Below, one piece after another: positions 7,386-30,169 of a stretch of DNA of 38,227 nucleotides. The DNA is taken from positions 1-38,227 of the forward strand of contig PXTT01000059.1 of NCBI GenBank assembly GCA_003022535.1. The letters run 5' to 3'. The translations under genes and the position numbers were made by a program. Under the pieces are notes generated by a model. The model was not told the DNA's origin and did not search any database. It saw only the letters and a list, made by a program, of their open reading frames with translations. The stretch is from Bacteroidetes bacterium QS_9_68_14 (GTDB taxonomy: Bacteria; Bacteroidota; Rhodothermia; Rhodothermales; Salinibacteraceae). Position 1 is the first letter of the stretch; each line of letters starts with the position of its first letter.

Positions 7386-7407
7386 TTCGTTGAGTCTCCC
7401 TGGTCCT

Positions 7408-8472
7408 ATGGCCGACGCGAACTCGTCTTCTTCCTCCTCCTGGCTCGACTCCGTGCAGCCGTTTCTGGAGTTTCTCATCGGCATTTTCGGGGCGCTAGCC
7501 ATCATCGGGGTCTTCTTCAAAATTCAGGGCTACCCGAACACCGAGATCTTCATGGTGCTCGGATTCATGGGAGAGGCGGCAGCCTTCGTCGTCATGGGCT
7601 CCTTCGCGTTGCTGATGCACTTCATGGGCAGGGACCAGGCGGGAAGCGAAGGCGAGGCGACCGCCGAGGTCGTGACCGTCGAGCAGCAACAACAGGCGCC
7701 GGTGCAGGAAATGCGCGCCTCCTTCCGCGAGATGATGGAAGAGCGCCTCCGCGAAGACCTCGACGGGGCCATGGAGGCGCTGGCGCAGGAGACCCACCGC
7801 TTCGAGCAGGAGATGCGGCAAATGGCTGGCGAGATGGAGCAGACGCGCTCGGCGCTCGGCCGGGTGCAGGAGGCCCTCGGCCCTGCCGCCGATGGGCGCT
7901 TGACCGAACAGGCCCGCGTGCTGGGGAACCGCATGGAGCAGATCAACGCGCAGCTTCGCCAGAGCGGGAAAAAGATCGAGGGCGCGTACGCGGCACTGGA
8001 GCAGATGGAAGACGGCCTTAGCCGCGCCGCCGCCGGCACGCTCCCCGAGGACGCCGAGCACTTGGAGGAAGGCATGAAGGCGCTGGGGGCCGAGGTGCAG
8101 GCGATGAGCAGCGAGATGGGCCCAGCGCGCACAGCGGTCAAGCAGATGCGCTCCGAGCTCGAGCAAGTCACCAGCGGCCGGTTGGCCGAAAATGCCGAGC
8201 TGCTGGGCGAAGGCATGGGCCACCTCGGCGAGGAGATGGATGGAGCCAGCCAGGCGGTCGAAAGCCTGCGCGCGGACCTCGACGAGATGGCCGGTCGCTT
8301 CCAGCGCTTCAACCGCGCCCCGGGCGGTCCGGGCAGTAGTGCCGCGGACGGCAACGCCTCGGCCAGCAATGGCACAGACCGCACCGCCTCGGGCGCGGGA
8401 GGCGATTACACCTCGGACACCCACCCGCAGAATGCGCGCCCCGCGCCCCACGAGGACACGCGCGGCGGGTGA
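7408..8472 (+). CDS. gldL: GldL/PorL-like T9SS inner-membrane motor subunit with extended coiled-coil tail
   Basis: 354 residues. Two membrane helices (about 23-41 and 48-71) carry the GldL signature: IIGVFFKI with K38 in helix 1 and GFMGEAAAF with E56 in helix 2. These match the lysine/glutamate pair of known GldL (K27 and E49 in Flavobacterium) thought to conduct protons. GldL forms a pentamer around a GldM dimer and drives secretion and gliding. The cytoplasmic tail (about 100-303) is almost wholly helical and made of four 47-residue repeats, followed by a disordered end (304-354). Usual GldL proteins are about 200-270 residues. ATG 7408 is preferred to an in-frame TTG at 7390. The gldK terminator lies just upstream; gldM follows after 63 bp. 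Confidence 0.82.
   Translation: MADANSSSSSSWLDSVQPFLEFLIGIFGALAIIGVFFKIQGYPNTEIFMVLGFMGEAAAFVVMGSFALLMHFMGRDQAGSEGEATAEVVTVEQQQQAPVQEMRASFREMMEERLREDLDGAMEALAQETHRFEQEMRQMAGEMEQTRSALGRVQEALGPAADGRLTEQARVLGNRMEQINAQLRQSGKKIEGAYAALEQMEDGLSRAAAGTLPEDAEHLEEGMKALGAEVQAMSSEMGPARTAVKQMRSELEQVTSGRLAENAELLGEGMGHLGEEMDGASQAVESLRADLDEMAGRFQRFNRAPGGPGSSAADGNASASNGTDRTASGAGGDYTSDTHPQNARPAPHEDTRGG
7753..8316 (+). repeat. four 47-codon coiled-coil repeats in gldL
   Basis: Residues 116-162, 163-209, 210-256 and 257-303 align with exactly 47-residue spacing. The last three begin GRLTEQARVL, GTLPEDAEHL and GRLAENAELL; the first is more diverged. Each contains heptad-like stretches and a mid-repeat G-x-M or similar turn. 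Confidence 0.7.
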
Positions 8473-8535
8473 GCGCGTGGCTCCTTCCACCCGCTTTCGC
8501 CTCTCCAGAAATACAGACTCCTCCGAAGACGGGCC

Positions 8536-9564
8536 ATGACCTCGCGCCTCAAGGATATGCGGTACTCCGTCATGCTGGCGTTGTACCTGCCGATCCTGCT
8601 CTACGCCTTTAGCACCTACGACCTCAGCGACGACACCTATGCCGTGCAATCAGTCGAGCCGGTGGTGGTGGGGGACCGCACAGTCGTGCTCGGGCAGCCA
8701 TTCACGGCGCGGACGTTCCTGAGCGTGGGGCAGAGCGAAGGGCAACGTCTGCAGACGCAGGGCGGTGGCGTGCAAGCGGTGGGCGACTCGCTCCTGCGCA
8801 TGAGCACGGGCGGCCTTCTGTCTGAGGAGGAAGACCAGAAAACTGTATCCTACAGTGGACAGTTTCGCTTTCGGCAGGTAGACGGGCAGATGGCGCAGCT
8901 CCCGGTGCAGGGGCGTTTTCAGGTGCGGCGGCCCGAGATCGTGGCCACCAGCGAGGCTACGCAGTCGCTGTACCGCCGGTGCCTCAACCGCATTCGCATC
9001 GACGTGCCGGGGCTGGAGGGGCGCCCGTTGCGCCTCGAATACGGGTCGCAGAGCACGGCCGGGCGCACTATCGCGCTCAGCCCGAGCCAGAGCAGCTCCA
9101 GCACCGTGCGCGTCTTCCTGGCCGACTCGGCCTCGGCGGGCACCGAAAACGTCTTTCTGGGCGAGAAAGAGTTTGCCGTGATCGACCCGCCGCGGCCCGA
9201 GCTGAAGGTACGCAGCGGGGGGCGCGAGGTGGCCAGCGGAGACAACATTCCGCGCCGTCGCGCCGTCCTGAACTTCGAGGTGGAGCCCGACCAAGAGTTT
9301 CGCCAACGCTACCCGCAGGACGCCCAGTACAGCGTAGGGCGCGCGACCGTCTTCCTGCGAAGAGGGCTGACGGCCAGCGAAAGAATCGGTACCTTCGACC
9401 TCGACGGGGGGCGCCTCGTTCTTACACGCAACCTCAGTGACGCCGAGGCTGGCGATCGCATTACGGTCCGCCTCGAAGGGGTCGTGCGCATCAACCACGC
9501 CGGGCAGGCCATCCCCGTTTCCTTCAGTGAGGCGAGCCGCACGTTTGGCTTCGTGCTTTCGTAG
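8536..9564 (+). CDS. gldM: GldM/PorM-like T9SS motor shaft protein lacking the D1 domain
   Basis: 342 residues: a single N-terminal membrane helix (about 11-27), then a periplasmic region of beta-sandwich domains. VVLGQPFTARTFLSV (50-64) matches the D2 opening; RPEIVATSEATQSLYRRCLN followed by RIRIDVPGL (about 132-160) matches the highly conserved GldM segment before D3; and GDRITVRLEGVVRIN (307-320) matches the C-terminal domain. GldM dimers span the periplasm and transmit motion from GldL to the GldK/N ring. Known GldM/PorM have about 510-520 residues with a helical D1 domain of some 180 residues after the membrane helix; here D2 begins almost directly after it. Lies between gldL and gldN, same strand. 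Confidence 0.82.
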   Translation: MTSRLKDMRYSVMLALYLPILLYAFSTYDLSDDTYAVQSVEPVVVGDRTVVLGQPFTARTFLSVGQSEGQRLQTQGGGVQAVGDSLLRMSTGGLLSEEEDQKTVSYSGQFRFRQVDGQMAQLPVQGRFQVRRPEIVATSEATQSLYRRCLNRIRIDVPGLEGRPLRLEYGSQSTAGRTIALSPSQSSSSTVRVFLADSASAGTENVFLGEKEFAVIDPPRPELKVRSGGREVASGDNIPRRRAVLNFEVEPDQEFRQRYPQDAQYSVGRATVFLRRGLTASERIGTFDLDGGRLVLTRNLSDAEAGDRITVRLEGVVRINHAGQAIPVSFSEASRTFGFVLS

Positions 9565-15333: not shown

Positions 15334-18300
15334 TCAAAGCTGCTCCTGCTCCCGGCGGGCGGTGCGGGCCTCTTCGGTCCCGGCGAATTCGTCCTGGAGG
15401 CGATCGTAGGTCCGCCGAGCTTGGGCGGGGCGACCGGCTGCGCGGAAGGCGCGCGCCTGGATTAGCAGGCTGCGGGCGATCCAGTCGGGGAAGCCGGCGA
15501 AGAGGTCCGGCAGGCGACGGAGCTCCTCGATGGCGTCCTCGGGCCGGTCCTGCTCCAGGAGCAACGCGCCGAGGCGGTAGAGGGCCTCGGCCCCGGCGGC
15601 GCCCCGGCTTTCCTCGGCCACACGGCGGTAGAGCGCCTGCGCCTCCCCAGGGCGGCCGGTGCTCTCGTAGAGGCCGGCGCGGGCCACGCGGGCTTCCTGC
15701 GCGACGGGCGCGCCGGAAGGAGCCCGCTCGGTGGCTTCGCGGAAGCGCGCCTCCGCATTGGCGGGGCGATCCAGCGCGGCGAGGGCGCGGCCCTGCCCGT
15801 ATTGGGCGCGGGCTTGCACGCGCCCGTCATCATCCGCGGGGGCACGCTCCTGCATCTGCTCGTAGGCATCGAGGGCCCGCTGAGGCGCGTCCTGCTGCAA
15901 GTAGAGCGCGCCGAGGCGCCCGGCAGCATCGGTGCGGCGGTCGGAGTCGGGATACTCGCGGAGCACCTGGCGCAGGTAGCCTTCGGCCTCGCGGTACTCG
16001 CCCTTCTCGGCGTAGATCGTGCCGAGGTAGTAGTACGCCTGCGGTAGCAGATCTCCGCGCGTGGAGGTGCGCACGAATTCCTGGAACGCCTGGCGCGCGG
16101 CGTCGGTCTGGCCGCGCTGGTATTGCGTCTCGGCCCGGCGAAAGCGCACCTCGGCGGCGGCATCGGCGCCGAGCTCATCGAGGGTGTCGTCGCTGCCACC
16201 GTCGCCGCCCGTGGCGAGGGCCACGCCGCGTGCCGCGTCGGAGGCGAAGGCGCTCTCGGGGTAGTCCTCCAGCACGGCCCGATAGGCGCGCGCGGCGGCC
16301 TCCCGGCGCCCTGCGTTGTAGAGCGCGTCGCCGATGCTGTACTGCGCCTTCGCCGCCAGGGCGCCGCTCGCGTTGCTGCTTTCCAGCAGGGCCCGCCAGG
16401 CGCGCACGGCTGCGTCGTAGCGCTCGGCCTGGAAGCGCGCCTGCCCAATCTGGAAACGCGCCTCTTCGCGCAGTTCGCTTTCGGGGAAGTCATTCACGAG
16501 GCGCTGCCACGCGGCGATGGCGCCCTCGGCGTCGTCCGTGCGGGTGCGTGCCTGGCCGGTCTGGTAGAGGGCATAATCGCGGGCGTCGCGAGTCCCCTCG
16601 CGGCTGGCGCGGGCATAGGCGCGCTCCGCCTCGGCGAAGCGGCGGCGGGCGTAGTAGCTGTCGCCGAGGCGCAGGAGCGCGTCGCTGCGGTAGGTGCCCT
16701 CCTCCGCCCCGGGCGTCGCCAGAAAGCGCTCGAAGCGGCGCGCGGCGCGGTCGTAGTTTTCCTGCTGGAAGGCAGCCCAGGCGAGGCCGTACCGCGCGGC
16801 CTCAGCGTAGCTGCCCTCGGGGTACTCGCGCAGGTAGCGCTGGTAGCCACGCGCGGCCTCTGCGAAAGCGCCGGTGCGGTAGCGGGCCTCGGCCGCGCGG
16901 TAGAGCGCTTCGGCTACGCGCTCGCCCTCGGGGGCCTGGCGCCGGTAAGCTGCGAAGGCGTCGGCGGCCTCGGCGGGGCGCCCGGCGCGGAGGAGAAGCT
17001 GCCCCTGCTCGAAGCGCGCCTGCGCTGCCAGCTCCGCGGGTAGGCCGGCGGCGAGCGCCTCATCCAGGGCCGCGAGCGCGTCGGCGTCTCGCCCGCCGGC
17101 TTGCTGGAGCGCGCGGCTGCGCACGTAGCGCGCCGCGGCGCGTTGCTCGAAGCCGTCGGGCGCCTCCGCGGTCACGCGACCCAGGACGCGCGCGGCCTCA
17201 GCGGGGCGGCCGGCGGCCAACAGCGCGCGGCCCCGGCGGTACTGCGCGTCGGGGCGGCGCGGGCTCTCGGGAAAGCGCTCGGCGAAAGCGGCAAACCCCT
17301 CGGCGGCGGCCCCGGGCTCGCCCGCCTCCGCGCGGCTGACGGCGGCAAGGTAGGCCGCTCGCTCGCGCACGTCAGCATCGGTGCCTGTCGCATGGCCGGA
17401 ATCAGGGGCCGCCTCGGCTACGCGGGCGAAGAGGGCGGCGGCGCGCGGGTAGTCCGCCTGGCGGTAGCGCAGGAGGGCCATCCCGTAGCGGGCAGCCCGC
17501 GCGTCAGGGCTTTCGGAGAAGCGCTCCAGGTAGCGCTGGTAGGCCGCGGCGGCCTCCGAGCGGCGCCCGCCCTGCCGGCGCAGCGCCTCGGCGCGGAGGA
17601 AGGACGCCCGCGCGCGCTCGCTTCGCGCCTCCAGTGTGCCGCGTTGCTGGTCGAGCTCGCGCAACACGTCCCCGTGACGCCCGAGGTCGAAGTAGACCTC
17701 TGCCAGCGCCAGCCCGAGACTGCTGGCCTGTGGGGCCGCGGGATAGCGCTGCGCAAGGCGTTCGAGCGCGTCGGCCGCCTCGGCCGTGCGCCCCTGCTGA
17801 AGGTGCACCGAGGCGACCTGGTAGAGCGCGCGCGGGGCCGCCGCGGCGTCCGGGTACTGCTGGCTGACAGTGCGAGACTGCTCCAGCGCGTCGGCGGGCC
17901 GGCCCTGCCGCTGCGCCAGCCGCCCCAGCAGGAAGCGCGCCTCCGCGGCGCGCTCGGGGCCCGCGTCTTCGAGCACGCGGCGAAGCGTGCGGCGGGCTCT
18001 TTCATTTGCCTCTTGCTCGAAAAAGTAGCGCCCCAGCCGAAGCTGGGCCCGCTCGGCCAGCGGATGCATCGGGTACGCCGCCTGGAGTTGCTCCAGACGC
18101 CGCATGGCGGCCGCGCTGTTTTCCAGCGCCAGCGACGCGCGCGCTTCGTAGAAGAGCGCCTCGGGCGCGCGGGCATGATGGGGGAAAGCGTCCCGAAAGT
18201 CGGCGAAGGCTTCCTGCGCGGCGCCGTAGAGGCGTTCTCGGTAGAGCGAAAGCGCGTCGGCGAACGCTTCGCTGGCCTCGCTGGAACCGGCGGAAGTGGA

Positions 18301-18438
18301 CTGCGCCCGCCCCTCGGCCTTCGGCCACGCCAGCAGGAGCGCGCCGCCCAGTAGCAGCACCGGCAAAAGCGCAGCGACCCTGCCTCGCGTGCGCCTGCCC
18401 CGCGTGCGGGGGAAAGGGGGCGGGCAGAAAGCAGCCAT
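15334..18438 (-). CDS. giant periplasmic tetratricopeptide-repeat protein
   Basis: 1034 residues: a basic N terminus with signal peptide (hydrophobic VAALLPVLLLGGALLLAW, cleavage near GRAQS), then TPR-type helical pairs to the end. Repeats have the YbgF/BamD-like form with an Asp/Glu-Tyr-Pro helix end (for example VLEDYPESAFASDAARG, VLREYPDSDRRTDAAGR). I estimate roughly 25 units of about 34-40 residues. Such proteins act as scaffolds in envelope assemblies; YbgF/CpoB is tied to Tol-Pal, which fits ExbB/ExbD at the end of this operon. SprE/PorW of the T9SS is also a large TPR protein, but is a lipoprotein; no lipobox is present here. ATG 18438 is chosen for the signal peptide; the frame is open to 18636. 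First gene of the operon. Confidence 0.8.
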   Translation of the reverse strand: MAAFCPPPFPRTRGRRTRGRVAALLPVLLLGGALLLAWPKAEGRAQSTSAGSSEASEAFADALSLYRERLYGAAQEAFADFRDAFPHHARAPEALFYEARASLALENSAAAMRRLEQLQAAYPMHPLAERAQLRLGRYFFEQEANERARRTLRRVLEDAGPERAAEARFLLGRLAQRQGRPADALEQSRTVSQQYPDAAAAPRALYQVASVHLQQGRTAEAADALERLAQRYPAAPQASSLGLALAEVYFDLGRHGDVLRELDQQRGTLEARSERARASFLRAEALRRQGGRRSEAAAAYQRYLERFSESPDARAARYGMALLRYRQADYPRAAALFARVAEAAPDSGHATGTDADVRERAAYLAAVSRAEAGEPGAAAEGFAAFAERFPESPRRPDAQYRRGRALLAAGRPAEAARVLGRVTAEAPDGFEQRAAARYVRSRALQQAGGRDADALAALDEALAAGLPAELAAQARFEQGQLLLRAGRPAEAADAFAAYRRQAPEGERVAEALYRAAEARYRTGAFAEAARGYQRYLREYPEGSYAEAARYGLAWAAFQQENYDRAARRFERFLATPGAEEGTYRSDALLRLGDSYYARRRFAEAERAYARASREGTRDARDYALYQTGQARTRTDDAEGAIAAWQRLVNDFPESELREEARFQIGQARFQAERYDAAVRAWRALLESSNASGALAAKAQYSIGDALYNAGRREAAARAYRAVLEDYPESAFASDAARGVALATGGDGGSDDTLDELGADAAAEVRFRRAETQYQRGQTDAARQAFQEFVRTSTRGDLLPQAYYYLGTIYAEKGEYREAEGYLRQVLREYPDSDRRTDAAGRLGALYLQQDAPQRALDAYEQMQERAPADDDGRVQARAQYGQGRALAALDRPANAEARFREATERAPSGAPVAQEARVARAGLYESTGRPGEAQALYRRVAEESRGAAGAEALYRLGALLLEQDRPEDAIEELRRLPDLFAGFPDWIARSLLIQARAFRAAGRPAQARRTYDRLQDEFAGTEEARTARREQEQL

Positions 18439-18757
18439 GACCGAGAGGAAGAAGCAGGGCGAGGAGGCCGGTGGCACATGGGCTTCGAAAGAAAAGAACA
18501 GGCCTCGACAGGGTAAGTGAAACGAGCGAAAACTTCGAGCCGCGAAGCGAGCGAATGGTTCTGCAGGCGGCGCGGCAAACAAAAGGAGCCGCGCGCGAGG
18601 CGAGCCTTCCGAACGAACGTAAACGTCATTTCTCACAGAACCATTACACCGGATGAGGGTTTACGCGAATCCTCCTGCGGCCCGGCACTCTTTGCAAGGT
18701 CCGCCGCATGGCAACACGTTCAGCGTCTTGCCTTCTTCCCTTTCTCATCCTGCTCCT
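18439..18757. other. 319-bp divergent promoter region
   Basis: Lies between the TPR-barrel-HU-SPOR-ExbBD operon (minus) and the DUF883-like pair (plus). No gene seen. It must carry promoters in both directions, but I could not place -33/-7 elements with confidence. Confidence 0.55.
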
Positions 18758-25376: not shown

Positions 25377-28300
25377 GTGCGCCTGCCCCGTCGCACGTTC
25401 CCGTTGCCGCTTCCCAAGCGCCCGTCTGCTCTGGTGGGCGGGACGCTGCTGGTCGTGGGGCTGCTGGCCGCCACGCTGGCCGCGCCGGCGGTCCGCGCGC
25501 AGGTCACGCCCCCGTCAGACACCGCCGCCACGGCCCCGCGCACCCTCGCCGGCGGCGCCCTCCGCACCGACCCGACGCTCCACGCGGACACGCTCAACAT
25601 CTTTAAAACGCAGCCTTTCGAGCTTTGGCCCTTCATCCTGCCGGGCTCCGAGACGGTCGTCGTGGATGGAGCGCGGCTGGACACCGCGCAGTACCGCCTT
25701 GACGCGCGCGCCGGGCATCTCTGGCTTCGCGTCGAGCCGCCGAGTGGCGACTCGTGGCTGGCGGTGACGTATCGCACCCTGCCGTTTGAAGGCCTGCGCG
25801 GCACCTACCGCCTGCGCGGCGTGGCCGACACGTCCGCCGAGGGGGCCGCAACGGTGCGCGAGAAGCCCCGCGAGGAAGACGGGGAGGCGCCTGCGTTCGA
25901 TCCCTTCGAAGGGGTGAGCCTGGAGCGCAGCGGGTCGGTCTCGCGTGGCGTGATCGCGGGGTCGAACCGCGACGCGACCGTCGAGTCGGGCCTGCGGATG
26001 CAGATCGCCGGCGACGTGAGCGAGGACGTGAGCGTGCAGGCGGTTCTCACCGACGAGAACACGCCCATCCAGCCGGAGGGCACCACGCAGCGCCTCGACG
26101 ACTTCGACCGCGTCTTCATGGAGTTGGCCGCCCCGCAGGGCACCGCCCGCCTCGGCGACGTGGACCTCGAGCTCGGGCAGGAGACCACCTTCGCGCGCTT
26201 TCGCCGCAAGGTCCAGGGCGCCGCTGCGCAGGCCGCCTCGCCCGCGTCGCTGGGGGGGCGCGCCCTGGGCAAGGGCCACGCCACCGTCGCCGGGGCCGTC
26301 TCGCGCGGGCAGTACCGCCTCCAGCAGATTGAGCCGACCGACGGCGTGCAGGGGCCGTACCGGCTGCGCGGCTCCGGGGGCAAAGACGCCATCGTCGTCA
26401 TCGCCGGCTCGGAACAAGTCTACCTCGACGGCGAGCGCCTGCAGCGCGGCGCCTCGGCCGACTACACCATCGACTATGCGCAGGCGGAGATCACCTTCAC
26501 GCCTGAGCGCCTCATCACCGAGGACCGGCGCATCCGCGTGGAGTTCGAGTACCGCACCTCCAGCTACTCGCGCACGCTCGTGGCCGGGCAGGGCGAGGCC
26601 GGCTTCTGGCGGCGCTCCGAAGGGGCAGCAGGCGAGCGCGCCGGCGAGCCGCGCGTGACCGTCGGCGCCACGTTCGTCCGCGAGGCTGACGGGACCTCGC
26701 TGGGGGAGGGCCGCTTCGACCTGACCGCGCAGGACTCGACGCGCCTCGCGGAGGCCGGCGACGACGACGTGACCGGCAGCGGGGCCACGCGCGTGCCCTT
26801 CGAGCCAGAGGCGCCGTACATCCCCTACGAGCGCGTGGCCGCCCCCGACGGCGGCGATGGGGCGGACTCGGTGTTCGTGGCGCTCGAAGAGGCCCCGCCC
26901 CGGGGGACGCCGGTGTGGCGCGTGCGTTTCACCCGTGTGGGCAGCGGGCAGGGCCGCTACACGCGCGAGGGGCGGCAGGCCGGCGGCATCGTCTACGAAT
27001 ACCGCGGCGAAGGGCAGGGCGCGTACGCCCCGGTTCGCCCGCTCCCGCGTCCGCAGCAGCAACGCCTGCTCGACCTCCACGCGACCGCCGAGCCGGTGGA
27101 CGGGGTCGAGCTGTTCGGCGAATGGGCGCGCTCGACGAACGACCAGAATCGCCTTTCGAGCCTCGACGAGGGCAACGACCGCGGCGGCGCGTACCACACG
27201 GGCCTCCGCCTGAAGCCGCTCGCGCTCCGGCTGGGGGGCATGGAACTCGGCCGGCTGAGCGGGGAGGCCGAGCGGCGCTTTCGCGGGCAGCACTTCACCG
27301 CGTTCGTGCGCACGCGGCCCGTCGAGTTTGGGCGGAAGTGGAACTTGCCCTCCGAGCGGGTCGGCTTCGGGGCCGGCGGCGTGCGCGGGGCCGGCAACGA
27401 AACGGTAGACGAAGCGCGCCTGCGCCTGGGGTTTTCGGAGGAGTCGGAAGTGGAGGCGGAGCTGGGCCGCCTGACGTTGGGGGACGCCTTCCGCGGGGTG
27501 CGCCGCGCCGGGCACGTGCGCCTCCGCGAAGCCGGCTGGCCGCGCCTGGACTACCGCGCGGCGCTCGTCACCAGCCGCGACGCGCTCGAAGGGGCCATTC
27601 TCGACGAGGACGGCCCGTCCCGCGACGACGATGACGAAAACGACGGCGACGAGAATGCAGGCGAAGCGATCGAGGGGCGCTGGCTGCGGCAACGCGGGGC
27701 GCTCTGGCAGCCGCTGCTGGGCGGGGACCTCGTGCCGCGCCTCGAAATCGAGCAAGAGCGCCGCCTGCAGCGCGTGGCCCCTGACGACCGCCTCACGGAG
27801 CGCTCCTTTTCGTTCGTAGAGGTGCGCCCGAACGTGACCTTTCGCCCCAGCGAGGCGTTGCGCGCCGGGGCCGAGGTCGAGATTCGCACCGAAGACGAGA
27901 CGCTCGACGGCCGGCTCGAAGACGCCTCGACGGCGTGGACCGTGCAGACGAATGCGGCCTACGACCCCTCCTCCGACGTGCTCGACGTGGAGGGCCGCGT
28001 CGGCTACCGGCGGCGGCGCGTGGAGGAGGGCTTCCGCAACCGAGGCGGAAAGCAGGGCACGTCCGCGCTCCTCGCGCAGGTGGAGGGGCGCTGGCAGCCG
28101 CTGGGGCGCGCGGCAGAGGTGCGCGGCCTCTACCGCGCGCAGACGAAGCGCACACCGCTCCTGGAGGAGACTTACGTCCAGATTGGCCCCGAGCGCGGGC
28201 AGTACGTCTGGGAAGACGCGGACGACGACGGCCTCGTCCAGAACGACGAGCTGCTGCCGGAGCGCACGCCCAACGAGGGCACCTACGTGCAGCGCTACGT

Positions 28301-29171
28301 CCCGTCCGACTCGCTTCAGTCGGTGGCGAGCGTGGAGGCGCGCCTGCGCCTGAACCTGACGCCCGCCCGTCGCTTTCGCGGTTCGGACGTGCGCTGGCAA
28401 CGCCTGCTCGCGCAGGTCGAGACGCAGACCACCGCCGAGATCCGCGAGGAGAGCCGCACCGGCCGCCTCGCGGACGTGTACCTGCTGCGGCTCGGCCGCT
28501 TCCGCGAGCCGGGCATCACGAAGCAGGGCCGCCTGCGCCTCGCCCAGCGCGTGACGCTCTTCTCGGACGCCACCGACTACGGGCTGGACCTGTCCGTCAG
28601 CCAAGTGCGCACCCTGAACGACCTGGCCGCTGGTGCGGAAGAGACCCTTCGCGCGCAATGGGAGGCGGAGGGGCGCTACCGTCCGGGGCGCCGCTGGAGC
28701 CTGTCGCTGCGTGGGCTTTTCGGCCAAAACCGCACCGACAGCGAAGCCTTCGCCTCGCGCCGCTACGACATCGGCCGCGTGCAGGTCGAGCCGGAGGCGA
28801 CGTTTCGCCCGGCGGCCGGCTGGCGCGTCACCGCCCGCGGCGTCTTCGCTCGCAAGAGCGACGCGGTCGAGGAGCGCCAGGCGCGCGTGCTCCGCGCCCC
28901 GCTGAAGATGGAGTGGAGCCGCGCGCGCCGCTTTCGCCTCACCGCGCGGGGCGAGGTCAGCCACGTGACGCTGACCGGCGGCAACGCGACCGGACTGGCC
29001 CGCTACGAGCTGACCGACGGGCGCGGCGTGGGCACGTCCCTTCGGTGGGGCCTGGGCGGGCGCTACGCGATCAACGAGTTCCTCAGCGCCACGCTCAGCT
29101 ACGACGGCCGCGCCCCCGCGCAGGCGGAGGTGGTCCACACCGCGCGGCTGAACCTGAGCGCGTCGTTTTAA
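25377..29171 (+). CDS. large outer-membrane protein with SprA-like N-terminal motifs
   Basis: 1264 residues with a signal peptide ending near AVRAQ (42). Residues 180-392 hold a run of motifs I associate with SprA-type and related giant Bacteroidota/Ignavibacteria barrels: SGSVSRGVIAGSNRDATVES, LTDENTPIQPEGTTQRLDDF, TDGVQGPYRLRGSGG, AGSEQVYLDGERLQRG and DYTIDYAQAEITFTPERLIT. From about 420 to the end it alternates amphipathic strands with R/E-rich turns, with a Ca-binding-like acidic stretch near residue 750 (DEDGPSRDDDDENDGDEN). SprA is the 36-strand T9SS translocon (about 2400 residues); this is half that size and may be a paralogue with another role. GTG 25377 fits the signal peptide. Followed after 98 bp by a NAGPA-domain gene. 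Confidence 0.62.
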   Translation: MRLPRRTFPLPLPKRPSALVGGTLLVVGLLAATLAAPAVRAQVTPPSDTAATAPRTLAGGALRTDPTLHADTLNIFKTQPFELWPFILPGSETVVVDGARLDTAQYRLDARAGHLWLRVEPPSGDSWLAVTYRTLPFEGLRGTYRLRGVADTSAEGAATVREKPREEDGEAPAFDPFEGVSLERSGSVSRGVIAGSNRDATVESGLRMQIAGDVSEDVSVQAVLTDENTPIQPEGTTQRLDDFDRVFMELAAPQGTARLGDVDLELGQETTFARFRRKVQGAAAQAASPASLGGRALGKGHATVAGAVSRGQYRLQQIEPTDGVQGPYRLRGSGGKDAIVVIAGSEQVYLDGERLQRGASADYTIDYAQAEITFTPERLITEDRRIRVEFEYRTSSYSRTLVAGQGEAGFWRRSEGAAGERAGEPRVTVGATFVREADGTSLGEGRFDLTAQDSTRLAEAGDDDVTGSGATRVPFEPEAPYIPYERVAAPDGGDGADSVFVALEEAPPRGTPVWRVRFTRVGSGQGRYTREGRQAGGIVYEYRGEGQGAYAPVRPLPRPQQQRLLDLHATAEPVDGVELFGEWARSTNDQNRLSSLDEGNDRGGAYHTGLRLKPLALRLGGMELGRLSGEAERRFRGQHFTAFVRTRPVEFGRKWNLPSERVGFGAGGVRGAGNETVDEARLRLGFSEESEVEAELGRLTLGDAFRGVRRAGHVRLREAGWPRLDYRAALVTSRDALEGAILDEDGPSRDDDDENDGDENAGEAIEGRWLRQRGALWQPLLGGDLVPRLEIEQERRLQRVAPDDRLTERSFSFVEVRPNVTFRPSEALRAGAEVEIRTEDETLDGRLEDASTAWTVQTNAAYDPSSDVLDVEGRVGYRRRRVEEGFRNRGGKQGTSALLAQVEGRWQPLGRAAEVRGLYRAQTKRTPLLEETYVQIGPERGQYVWEDADDDGLVQNDELLPERTPNEGTYVQRYVPSDSLQSVASVEARLRLNLTPARRFRGSDVRWQRLLAQVETQTTAEIREESRTGRLADVYLLRLGRFREPGITKQGRLRLAQRVTLFSDATDYGLDLSVSQVRTLNDLAAGAEETLRAQWEAEGRYRPGRRWSLSLRGLFGQNRTDSEAFASRRYDIGRVQVEPEATFRPAAGWRVTARGVFARKSDAVEERQARVLRAPLKMEWSRARRFRLTARGEVSHVTLTGGNATGLARYELTDGRGVGTSLRWGLGGRYAINEFLSATLSYDGRAPAQAEVVHTARLNLSASF

Positions 29172-29221
29172 GCGCATGGCCGCGAACCGCCGGCCTGGGG
29201 GCGCGTTGCCCTCCGCGCCAC

Positions 29222-29241
29222 CTGAGGGGAGCTGAGGGGAG
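29222..29241. repeat. perfect 10-bp tandem duplication
   Basis: CTGAGGGGAG occurs twice in tandem between the SprA-like and NAGPA genes, 28 bases before the latter's ATG. It contains GGGGAG and could influence ribosome binding, though spacing is long. Confidence 0.6.
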
Positions 29242-29269
29242 TTGAAGAGAGCAACGTACTCTGATCGCC

Positions 29270-30169
29270 ATGCTCCCACGTAAGCGCGCGCGGACCATGT
29301 TTCCGAAGCGCCTTCGATGCCTGTGGGTCGCCGCCCTGTGCCTGCTGGCCGGGGCCGAGGCAACGCACGCGCAGCAACGCTACTCCGTCGAGGAGACGCT
29401 TGCCGAGGCAACGTGGGAAACGGAGCGCCTGGCGCCGGGCGTGACGTGGAAGCGCGCCCAGATCGAGGGCCTCTTTGGCCTGCCGCAGAGCCTGAACGTG
29501 CTCGTTATGGACCTGGCGGCCGAGGGCGTGGAAATCGACGTGGCCTTCTCCGACAGTGGGCGCGTGAAGACCAGCGCGCTGGCGCGGCGCGTCGGGGCGG
29601 TCGCGGCGGTGAACGGGTCGTTTTTCGACACCGAAGACGGCACGTCGGTTGTCTTCTCGCAAAGCGACGGGCGGCTGCGAGCGACGCTTCCCGAAGACGG
29701 CCCCGCGTTCCTAAACCGCGCGGCGGTGGCGGCCGAGCGCGACGGCGACGCGCAGGTCATTCGCAAAAAGAAGCTGGGAGAGCGGCGGATGCCCCGGTTC
29801 GAAGACGTGCTTGCGGGCGGCCCGCTGCTTTTGTGGGACGGGCGCGTGGCGGACCTGCAGGCCACGAGCTTCAACGTCACGCACCACCCGCGTACCGCGA
29901 TGGGGGTGGCCGCCTCGGGCCGCCGCCTCGTCCTGGCGACGGTGGACGGACGCACGCGCCAAGCGGCCGGCATGACGGCCCGCGAGCTGGCGTGGACGAT
30001 GCGGGGGCTCGGTTGCGCGACGGCCGTCAACCTCGACGGCGGCGGCTCGACGACGATGTGGGCGCAGGGGCGTGGGGTCGTGAGCTACCCGGCCGACAAC
30101 GAGGCCTACGACCACGACGGCGAGCGCGGCGTGGCCAACGCGGTGGTCGTCTTCGCAGGGGAGAAGTGA
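29270..30169 (+). CDS. secreted phosphodiester glycosidase (NAGPA-domain) protein
   Basis: 299 residues. Signal peptide ends about ATHAQQ; an internal ATG at 29297 (MFPKRLRCLWVAALCLLAG) may be the true start. The NAGPA/DUF2233 domain fills the rest: VNGSFFDTEDG, EDVLAGGPLLLWDG, HHPRTAMGVAASGRRLVLATVDG, GMTARELAWTMRGLGCATAVNLDGGGSTTMW and GVANAVVVF. The family hydrolyses phosphodiesters between a sugar and another group (uncovering enzyme, exopolysaccharide or sporulation proteins). The catalytic-region motif NLDGGGSTTM is intact. Periplasmic or exported. It may be co-transcribed with the SprA-like gene; it converges on rmlB, 27 bp away. Confidence 0.88.
   Translation: MLPRKRARTMFPKRLRCLWVAALCLLAGAEATHAQQRYSVEETLAEATWETERLAPGVTWKRAQIEGLFGLPQSLNVLVMDLAAEGVEIDVAFSDSGRVKTSALARRVGAVAAVNGSFFDTEDGTSVVFSQSDGRLRATLPEDGPAFLNRAAVAAERDGDAQVIRKKKLGERRMPRFEDVLAGGPLLLWDGRVADLQATSFNVTHHPRTAMGVAASGRRLVLATVDGRTRQAAGMTARELAWTMRGLGCATAVNLDGGGSTTMWAQGRGVVSYPADNEAYDHDGERGVANAVVVFAGEK

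Follow-up and report, generated by a model that had tools for sequence, protein, structure and literature searches.

The closest described system to the protein reported here is SprA (Sov), the outer-membrane (OM) translocon of the T9SS (TIGR04189, PF14349; PDB 6H3I, 8GL6, and 8GL8), which is likewise an OM protein of Bacteroidota. SusC and the TonB-dependent transporters, also large OM barrels of Bacteroidota, have 22 strands and an N-terminal plug, and the barrel of LptD, another large OM protein, has 26 strands. SprA is a 36-strand barrel that is capped on the outside and has a lateral opening (PMC10994853). The window analyzed in this study, that is, the whole stretch of 38,227 nucleotides from Bacteroidetes bacterium QS_9_68_14, carries a gene for a protein (hereafter P0001) whose assignment to an unnamed, conserved family of giant OM barrels of Bacteroidota is well supported; in structure, the family is distantly related to SprA, but it is not SprA. 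A literature search found no paper that names this family.

The features of the gene and its product are summarized in the table. A preliminary description of this DNA had reported a protein of 1264 residues and several short motifs, all of which were confirmed in the translation, as was an N-terminal signal-like stretch. The plus strand was taken as the coding strand of P0001 because full-length orthologues of the plus-strand protein are encoded in most related genomes; full-length relatives in other genomes are 36–81% identical. An antisense reading frame at positions 25515–29411 (minus strand, 1298 aa) is longer than the P0001 gene, exists by composition, and probably arose as a by-product of G+C-rich codon usage.

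Table. Positions of the P0001 gene, its upstream neighbor, and predicted protein features in the window.
Feature	Position	Strand	Basis
NHL-repeat lipoprotein-like gene, directly upstream of the P0001 gene	24067..25071	+	Pfam PF01436; linkage only
ORF of the giant OM beta-barrel protein P0001 (1264 codons/aa; GTG start 25377, stop 29171)	25377..29171	+	Orthologues; AlphaFold2 model with pLDDT 87
N-terminal signal-like peptide, residues 1 to ~42, ...LLAATLAAPAVRAQ	25377..25502	+	Read from the translation alone
Degenerate first copy (residues ~85–143) of the module common to SprA	25629..25805	+	Second-ranking profile alignment with SprA (probability 66%)
Family signature SGSVSRG ... DENTPIQPEGTTQRLDDFDRVF, residues 181–261	25917..26160	+	Family alignment, entropy profile, pattern counts
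GPYRLRG element and second copy of the same module DYTIDYAQAEITFTPERLI, residues ~321–399	26337..26574	+	TIGR04189 match at 337–393; hhalign; hmmsearch of SprAs
C-terminal barrel region, residues 561–1264, strands 11–38 of 38 long predicted strands	27057..29168	+	DSSP of the AlphaFold2 model; hydrophobicity alternation
Conserved acidic loop GPERGQYVWEDADDDGLVQNDELLPE, residues ~936–962, resembling calcium-binding repeats of SdrD B domains	28182..28263	+	hmmsearch hit to PDB 10ps

Pfam and NCBIfam scans of P0001 gave no family over its cut-off. The SprA equivalog model TIGR04189 scored 27.2 bits, at residues 337–393 only, compared with a curated cut-off of 200 bits, and the Pfam search gave no match to the SprA_N domain (PF14349). 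When a profile of the P0001 family (68 members) was aligned with 18 full-length SprAs using hhalign, ~92 columns were aligned with a probability of 95% and an E value of 2.6e-8, the latter being the value for one comparison. This alignment covers the DYxIDYxxGEITFT module together with the strand that follows and reaches beyond residue 420 of P0001; only ~90 of the ~1150 family profile columns are aligned to SprA. The common module consists of ~60–90 residues (DYTIDYAQAEITFT..., approximately residues 325–420 of P0001), and in searches with the family HMM most SprAs showed it at a single, consistent place and gave no other significant match. It is also weakly similar to a phage-tail domain (DUF2460/TIGR02217). 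The pattern DYxIDYxxGxIxF was present in 10 of the 18 full-length SprAs of the phylum, PIQPxG and GPYxLxG were present in none of the 18, and [ST]GSxxRG occurred in one (L126), at residue 33 in the N-terminus, which is not an equivalent place. Of the four motifs that the preliminary description associated with SprA, the DYTIDYAQAEITFT module is thus indeed common to SprA, whereas SGSVSRG, PIQPEGTT, and GPYRLRG are, judging from these pattern counts, signatures of the P0001 family and not SprA motifs. The SGSVSRG block is among the most conserved parts of the family and is absent from SprA. In addition to having invariant motifs of its own, the family differs from SprA in being half as long: most members have 1150–1270 aa, whereas the 18 SprA frames have 2382–2731 aa and lie in the range taken for SprA, ~2300–2800 aa. 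At the level of sequence, the link between P0001 and SprA is significant but small, and TIDY-type motifs alone are no ground for annotating a protein as SprA. A sequence search of the PDB with P0001 alone gave a chance hit only, and a hmmsearch of the PDB with the family profile gave a match to 10ps at the acidic loop only. This loop (GQYVWEDADDDGLVQNDE in P0001) is conserved, and a pattern search found it in none of the 18 full-length SprAs. A search of a plasmid collection yielded no match.

AlphaFold2 models of P0001 (residues 65–1264; pLDDT 87.1, pTM 0.79) and of an orthologue from the genome G307 (~24% identical to P0001; pLDDT 85.4, pTM 0.76) contained ~38–40 long strands each, and DSSP assigned 38 strands of at least 8 residues to the P0001 model after the N-terminal module. 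The inside–outside alternation of hydrophobicity in the strands, calculated across the alignment, was 0.577 versus 0.349 ± 0.025 for within-strand shuffles. The models predict ~38 long amphipathic strands, with both the closure of the barrel and the exact strand number being predictions. The best Foldseek matches of both models in the PDB were SprA chains (E about 1e-10), followed by SusC, Mtr-complex, TonB-dependent, and LptD barrels. The TM-scores to SprA were low (0.22–0.25) with an rmsd of ~30 Å; therefore, no global superposition on SprA was established. Variability was much the same for residues predicted to point inward (entropy, 2.33) and outward (2.16), giving no support for a selective lumen.

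A genome search found a full-length sprA on contig C7 of the same assembly (L003:8624–16566). A single frame change, located between bases 13054 and 13063, breaks the gene and may be a sequencing error or a mutation. The gene product and the SprA of a congener (G001) are 74% identical over residues 19–1495 in one frame and 1516–2661 in another; in the congener, the whole protein is encoded in one frame. Contig C7 is the only place in the source genome where PF14349 was matched. In this assembly, which is 56% complete, there are also about six CTD domains and an orthologue of porV that scores 288 bits against a cut-off of 250. Among 60 relatives, SprA was present in 59 and the P0001 family in 55. 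P0001 is no substitute for SprA, because the source genome and nearly all of these relatives have a full-length sprA. A full-length sprA beside a P0001 of an unrelated family was named in the preliminary description as evidence against its reading, and half of this applies: the former is present, but the family is not wholly unrelated to SprA. The suggestion of a paralogue with another role came close, given the small but significant sequence link, SprA as the top structural match, and the similar predicted strand number.

The P0001 family showed a strong match in ~175 of 296 sampled Bacteroidota genomes (~60%), mostly with one copy per genome, and SprA was found in 228. As read off the result lists, 174 genomes had both, 1 had the family only, 54 had SprA only, and 67 had neither, an overlap that is phylogenetically confounded in that many or most of the SprA-negative genomes come from one family (f27). 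Weak family matches (E about 1e-4 to 1e-7) in SprA-positive genomes without the P0001 family most likely represent the module within SprA. Trees of the family and of SprA from 14 genomes had 7 of 11 splits in common, with a distance correlation of r = 0.92, as would be expected of two genes that are inherited vertically. The P0001 family is ancient, mostly single-copy, and vertically inherited alongside SprA, with absences that include repeated losses within families.

The one genome with a family member and without SprA, G307, is a 3.3-Mb genome in one contig. SprA was detected in G307 neither by Pfam or NCBIfam nor with the SprA of G330 as query, whose genome falls in the same family as G307, and no PorV orthologue was found. 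The CTD domains numbered 1 in G307 versus 42 in G330 for type A and 1 versus 14 for type B. GldK, GldL, GldM, and GldN of G307 all scored over their cut-offs, and a PorG-like gene scored below its own. G307 has, in short, a T9SS motor without the translocon (L128:4900–10059; G307:C1 about 266.9–272.1 kb). The family member of G307 has therefore outlasted T9SS secretion, persisting after SprA, PorV, and nearly all of the cargo disappeared; elsewhere the family coexists with SprA. This result argues against a role of the family dedicated to T9SS secretion, although a link to the GldKLMN motor is conceivable.

P0001 might instead be an accessory part of the T9SS, or the GldKLMN motor might have it as an alternative OM partner; in either case, it would act jointly with SprA on some of the cargo. 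The nested distribution (SprA in 174 of 175 family-positive versus 54 of 121 family-negative genomes) fits this reading, as do the module common to both proteins and the retention of GldK/L/M/N and the PorG-like gene in the single exception, G307. However, the association is confounded by f27 as described above, many T9SS-positive lineages lack the P0001 family, and G307 keeps the protein despite having lost porV, sprA, and almost all of its CTD cargo. Moreover, no linkage of the barrel gene to T9SS genes was seen in the neighborhoods examined, and we regard such an accessory role as doubtful.

The NHL cluster c3 was found beside the barrel gene at 14 of 41 loci, and in many Rhodothermales the barrel gene is preceded by an NHL-repeat gene and a purD-like gene. 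Other loci have housekeeping-like neighbors (purD-like, pfkB, and ribosomal-protein-like genes), and in the neighborhoods examined no partner gene beside the barrel gene was conserved across the phylum and no transport pathway was indicated. In the window, the barrel gene is followed on its own strand, after ~100 bp, by a phosphodiester glycosidase gene (NAGPA, PF09992; 29270–30169), which was not seen directly downstream in the congener G001. The gldK/L/M-like genes of the window lie about 16 kb off, in agreement with the earlier statement that P0001 is encoded at a distance from the motor genes. In this diverged motor (7390–9564), the GldL-like protein (360 aa) contains a long coiled-coil-like stretch, and the 342-aa GldM-like protein matches only positions 226–511 of the 524-position GldM model; therefore, its first domain appears to be missing. 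A TPR protein of 1100 aa (15334–18636, minus strand) gave its best match to the YbgF/CpoB repeat model and a sub-cut-off match to PorW/SprE (128.7 of 250 bits).

Conservation as a single copy among housekeeping-like, nonspecific neighbors, together with the presence of LptD among the weaker sequence and fold matches, would also suit a protein that serves OM biogenesis or structure (transport of lipids or LPS, anchoring of the envelope) and has a very large barrel by chance. We consider this unlikely: absence from ~40% of the sampled Bacteroidota means that the family is not essential envelope machinery in general, and the LptD-type matches are weaker than those to SprA, with the LptD domain scoring 13.5 bits against P0001, under the Pfam cut-off of 22.4, and the predicted strand number of P0001 exceeding that of LptD. 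Very unlikely, in our view, is a wide importer or receptor for large substrates that resembles SusC and the TonB-dependent transporters. These proteins are the next Foldseek matches, and ExbB/ExbD-like genes follow the barrel gene at L104, L106, and L107, but this linkage is confined to those three loci of the same class, no Pfam plug or TonB-dependent receptor barrel domain was detected in P0001 up to an E value of 0.1, and the predicted strand number is far over 22. Finally, the proposal of the preliminary description that P0001 is a minimal SprA, replacing the full-length protein as translocon for the diverged motor, is hardly credible and, for the source genome, largely refuted by the presence of sprA and porV, because despite the shared module, the similar strand number, and the persistence of motor genes with a family member in the sprA-less G307, sprA is also retained in 59 of 60 relatives, ~54 sampled Bacteroidota have SprA without the P0001 family, the CTD cargo collapsed in G307, and so few profile columns align to SprA.

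The best explanation overall, which we hold with moderate confidence, is that P0001 represents a second giant OM barrel family and forms a wide translocation channel apart from SprA/PorV. In the predicted architecture, a signal peptide and a short beta-module precede a barrel of ~38 strands, the first third of which has two insertions, the second module copy and another small beta-domain. The architecture also includes the conserved acidic loop. The barrel would form a wide OM channel, and the N-terminal modules may plug it or dock at its periplasmic mouth. A large substrate would then be moved across, or laterally into, the OM without recourse to the SprA/PorV route that CTD proteins take. 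We infer a transport role for P0001, along with its direction, its substrate, a closed barrel, and an open pore; the substrates of the channel are probably other than CTD cargo. A more specific possibility, put forward tentatively, is a second, unnamed class of giant (~36–40-strand) single-chain OM translocons that occurs in most of the sampled Bacteroidota, is evolutionarily linked to SprA, and exports or inserts a non-CTD substrate. Such a class might be driven by GldKLMN, as suggested by G307, which kept the motor and the barrel and lost SprA.

If the P0001 family does form such channels, very large OM pores would be more than a peculiarity of the T9SS, with a predicted strand number similar to that of SprA reached at half the length in ~60% of the sampled Bacteroidota, and the family would provide a compact outgroup for the origin of the SprA barrel.
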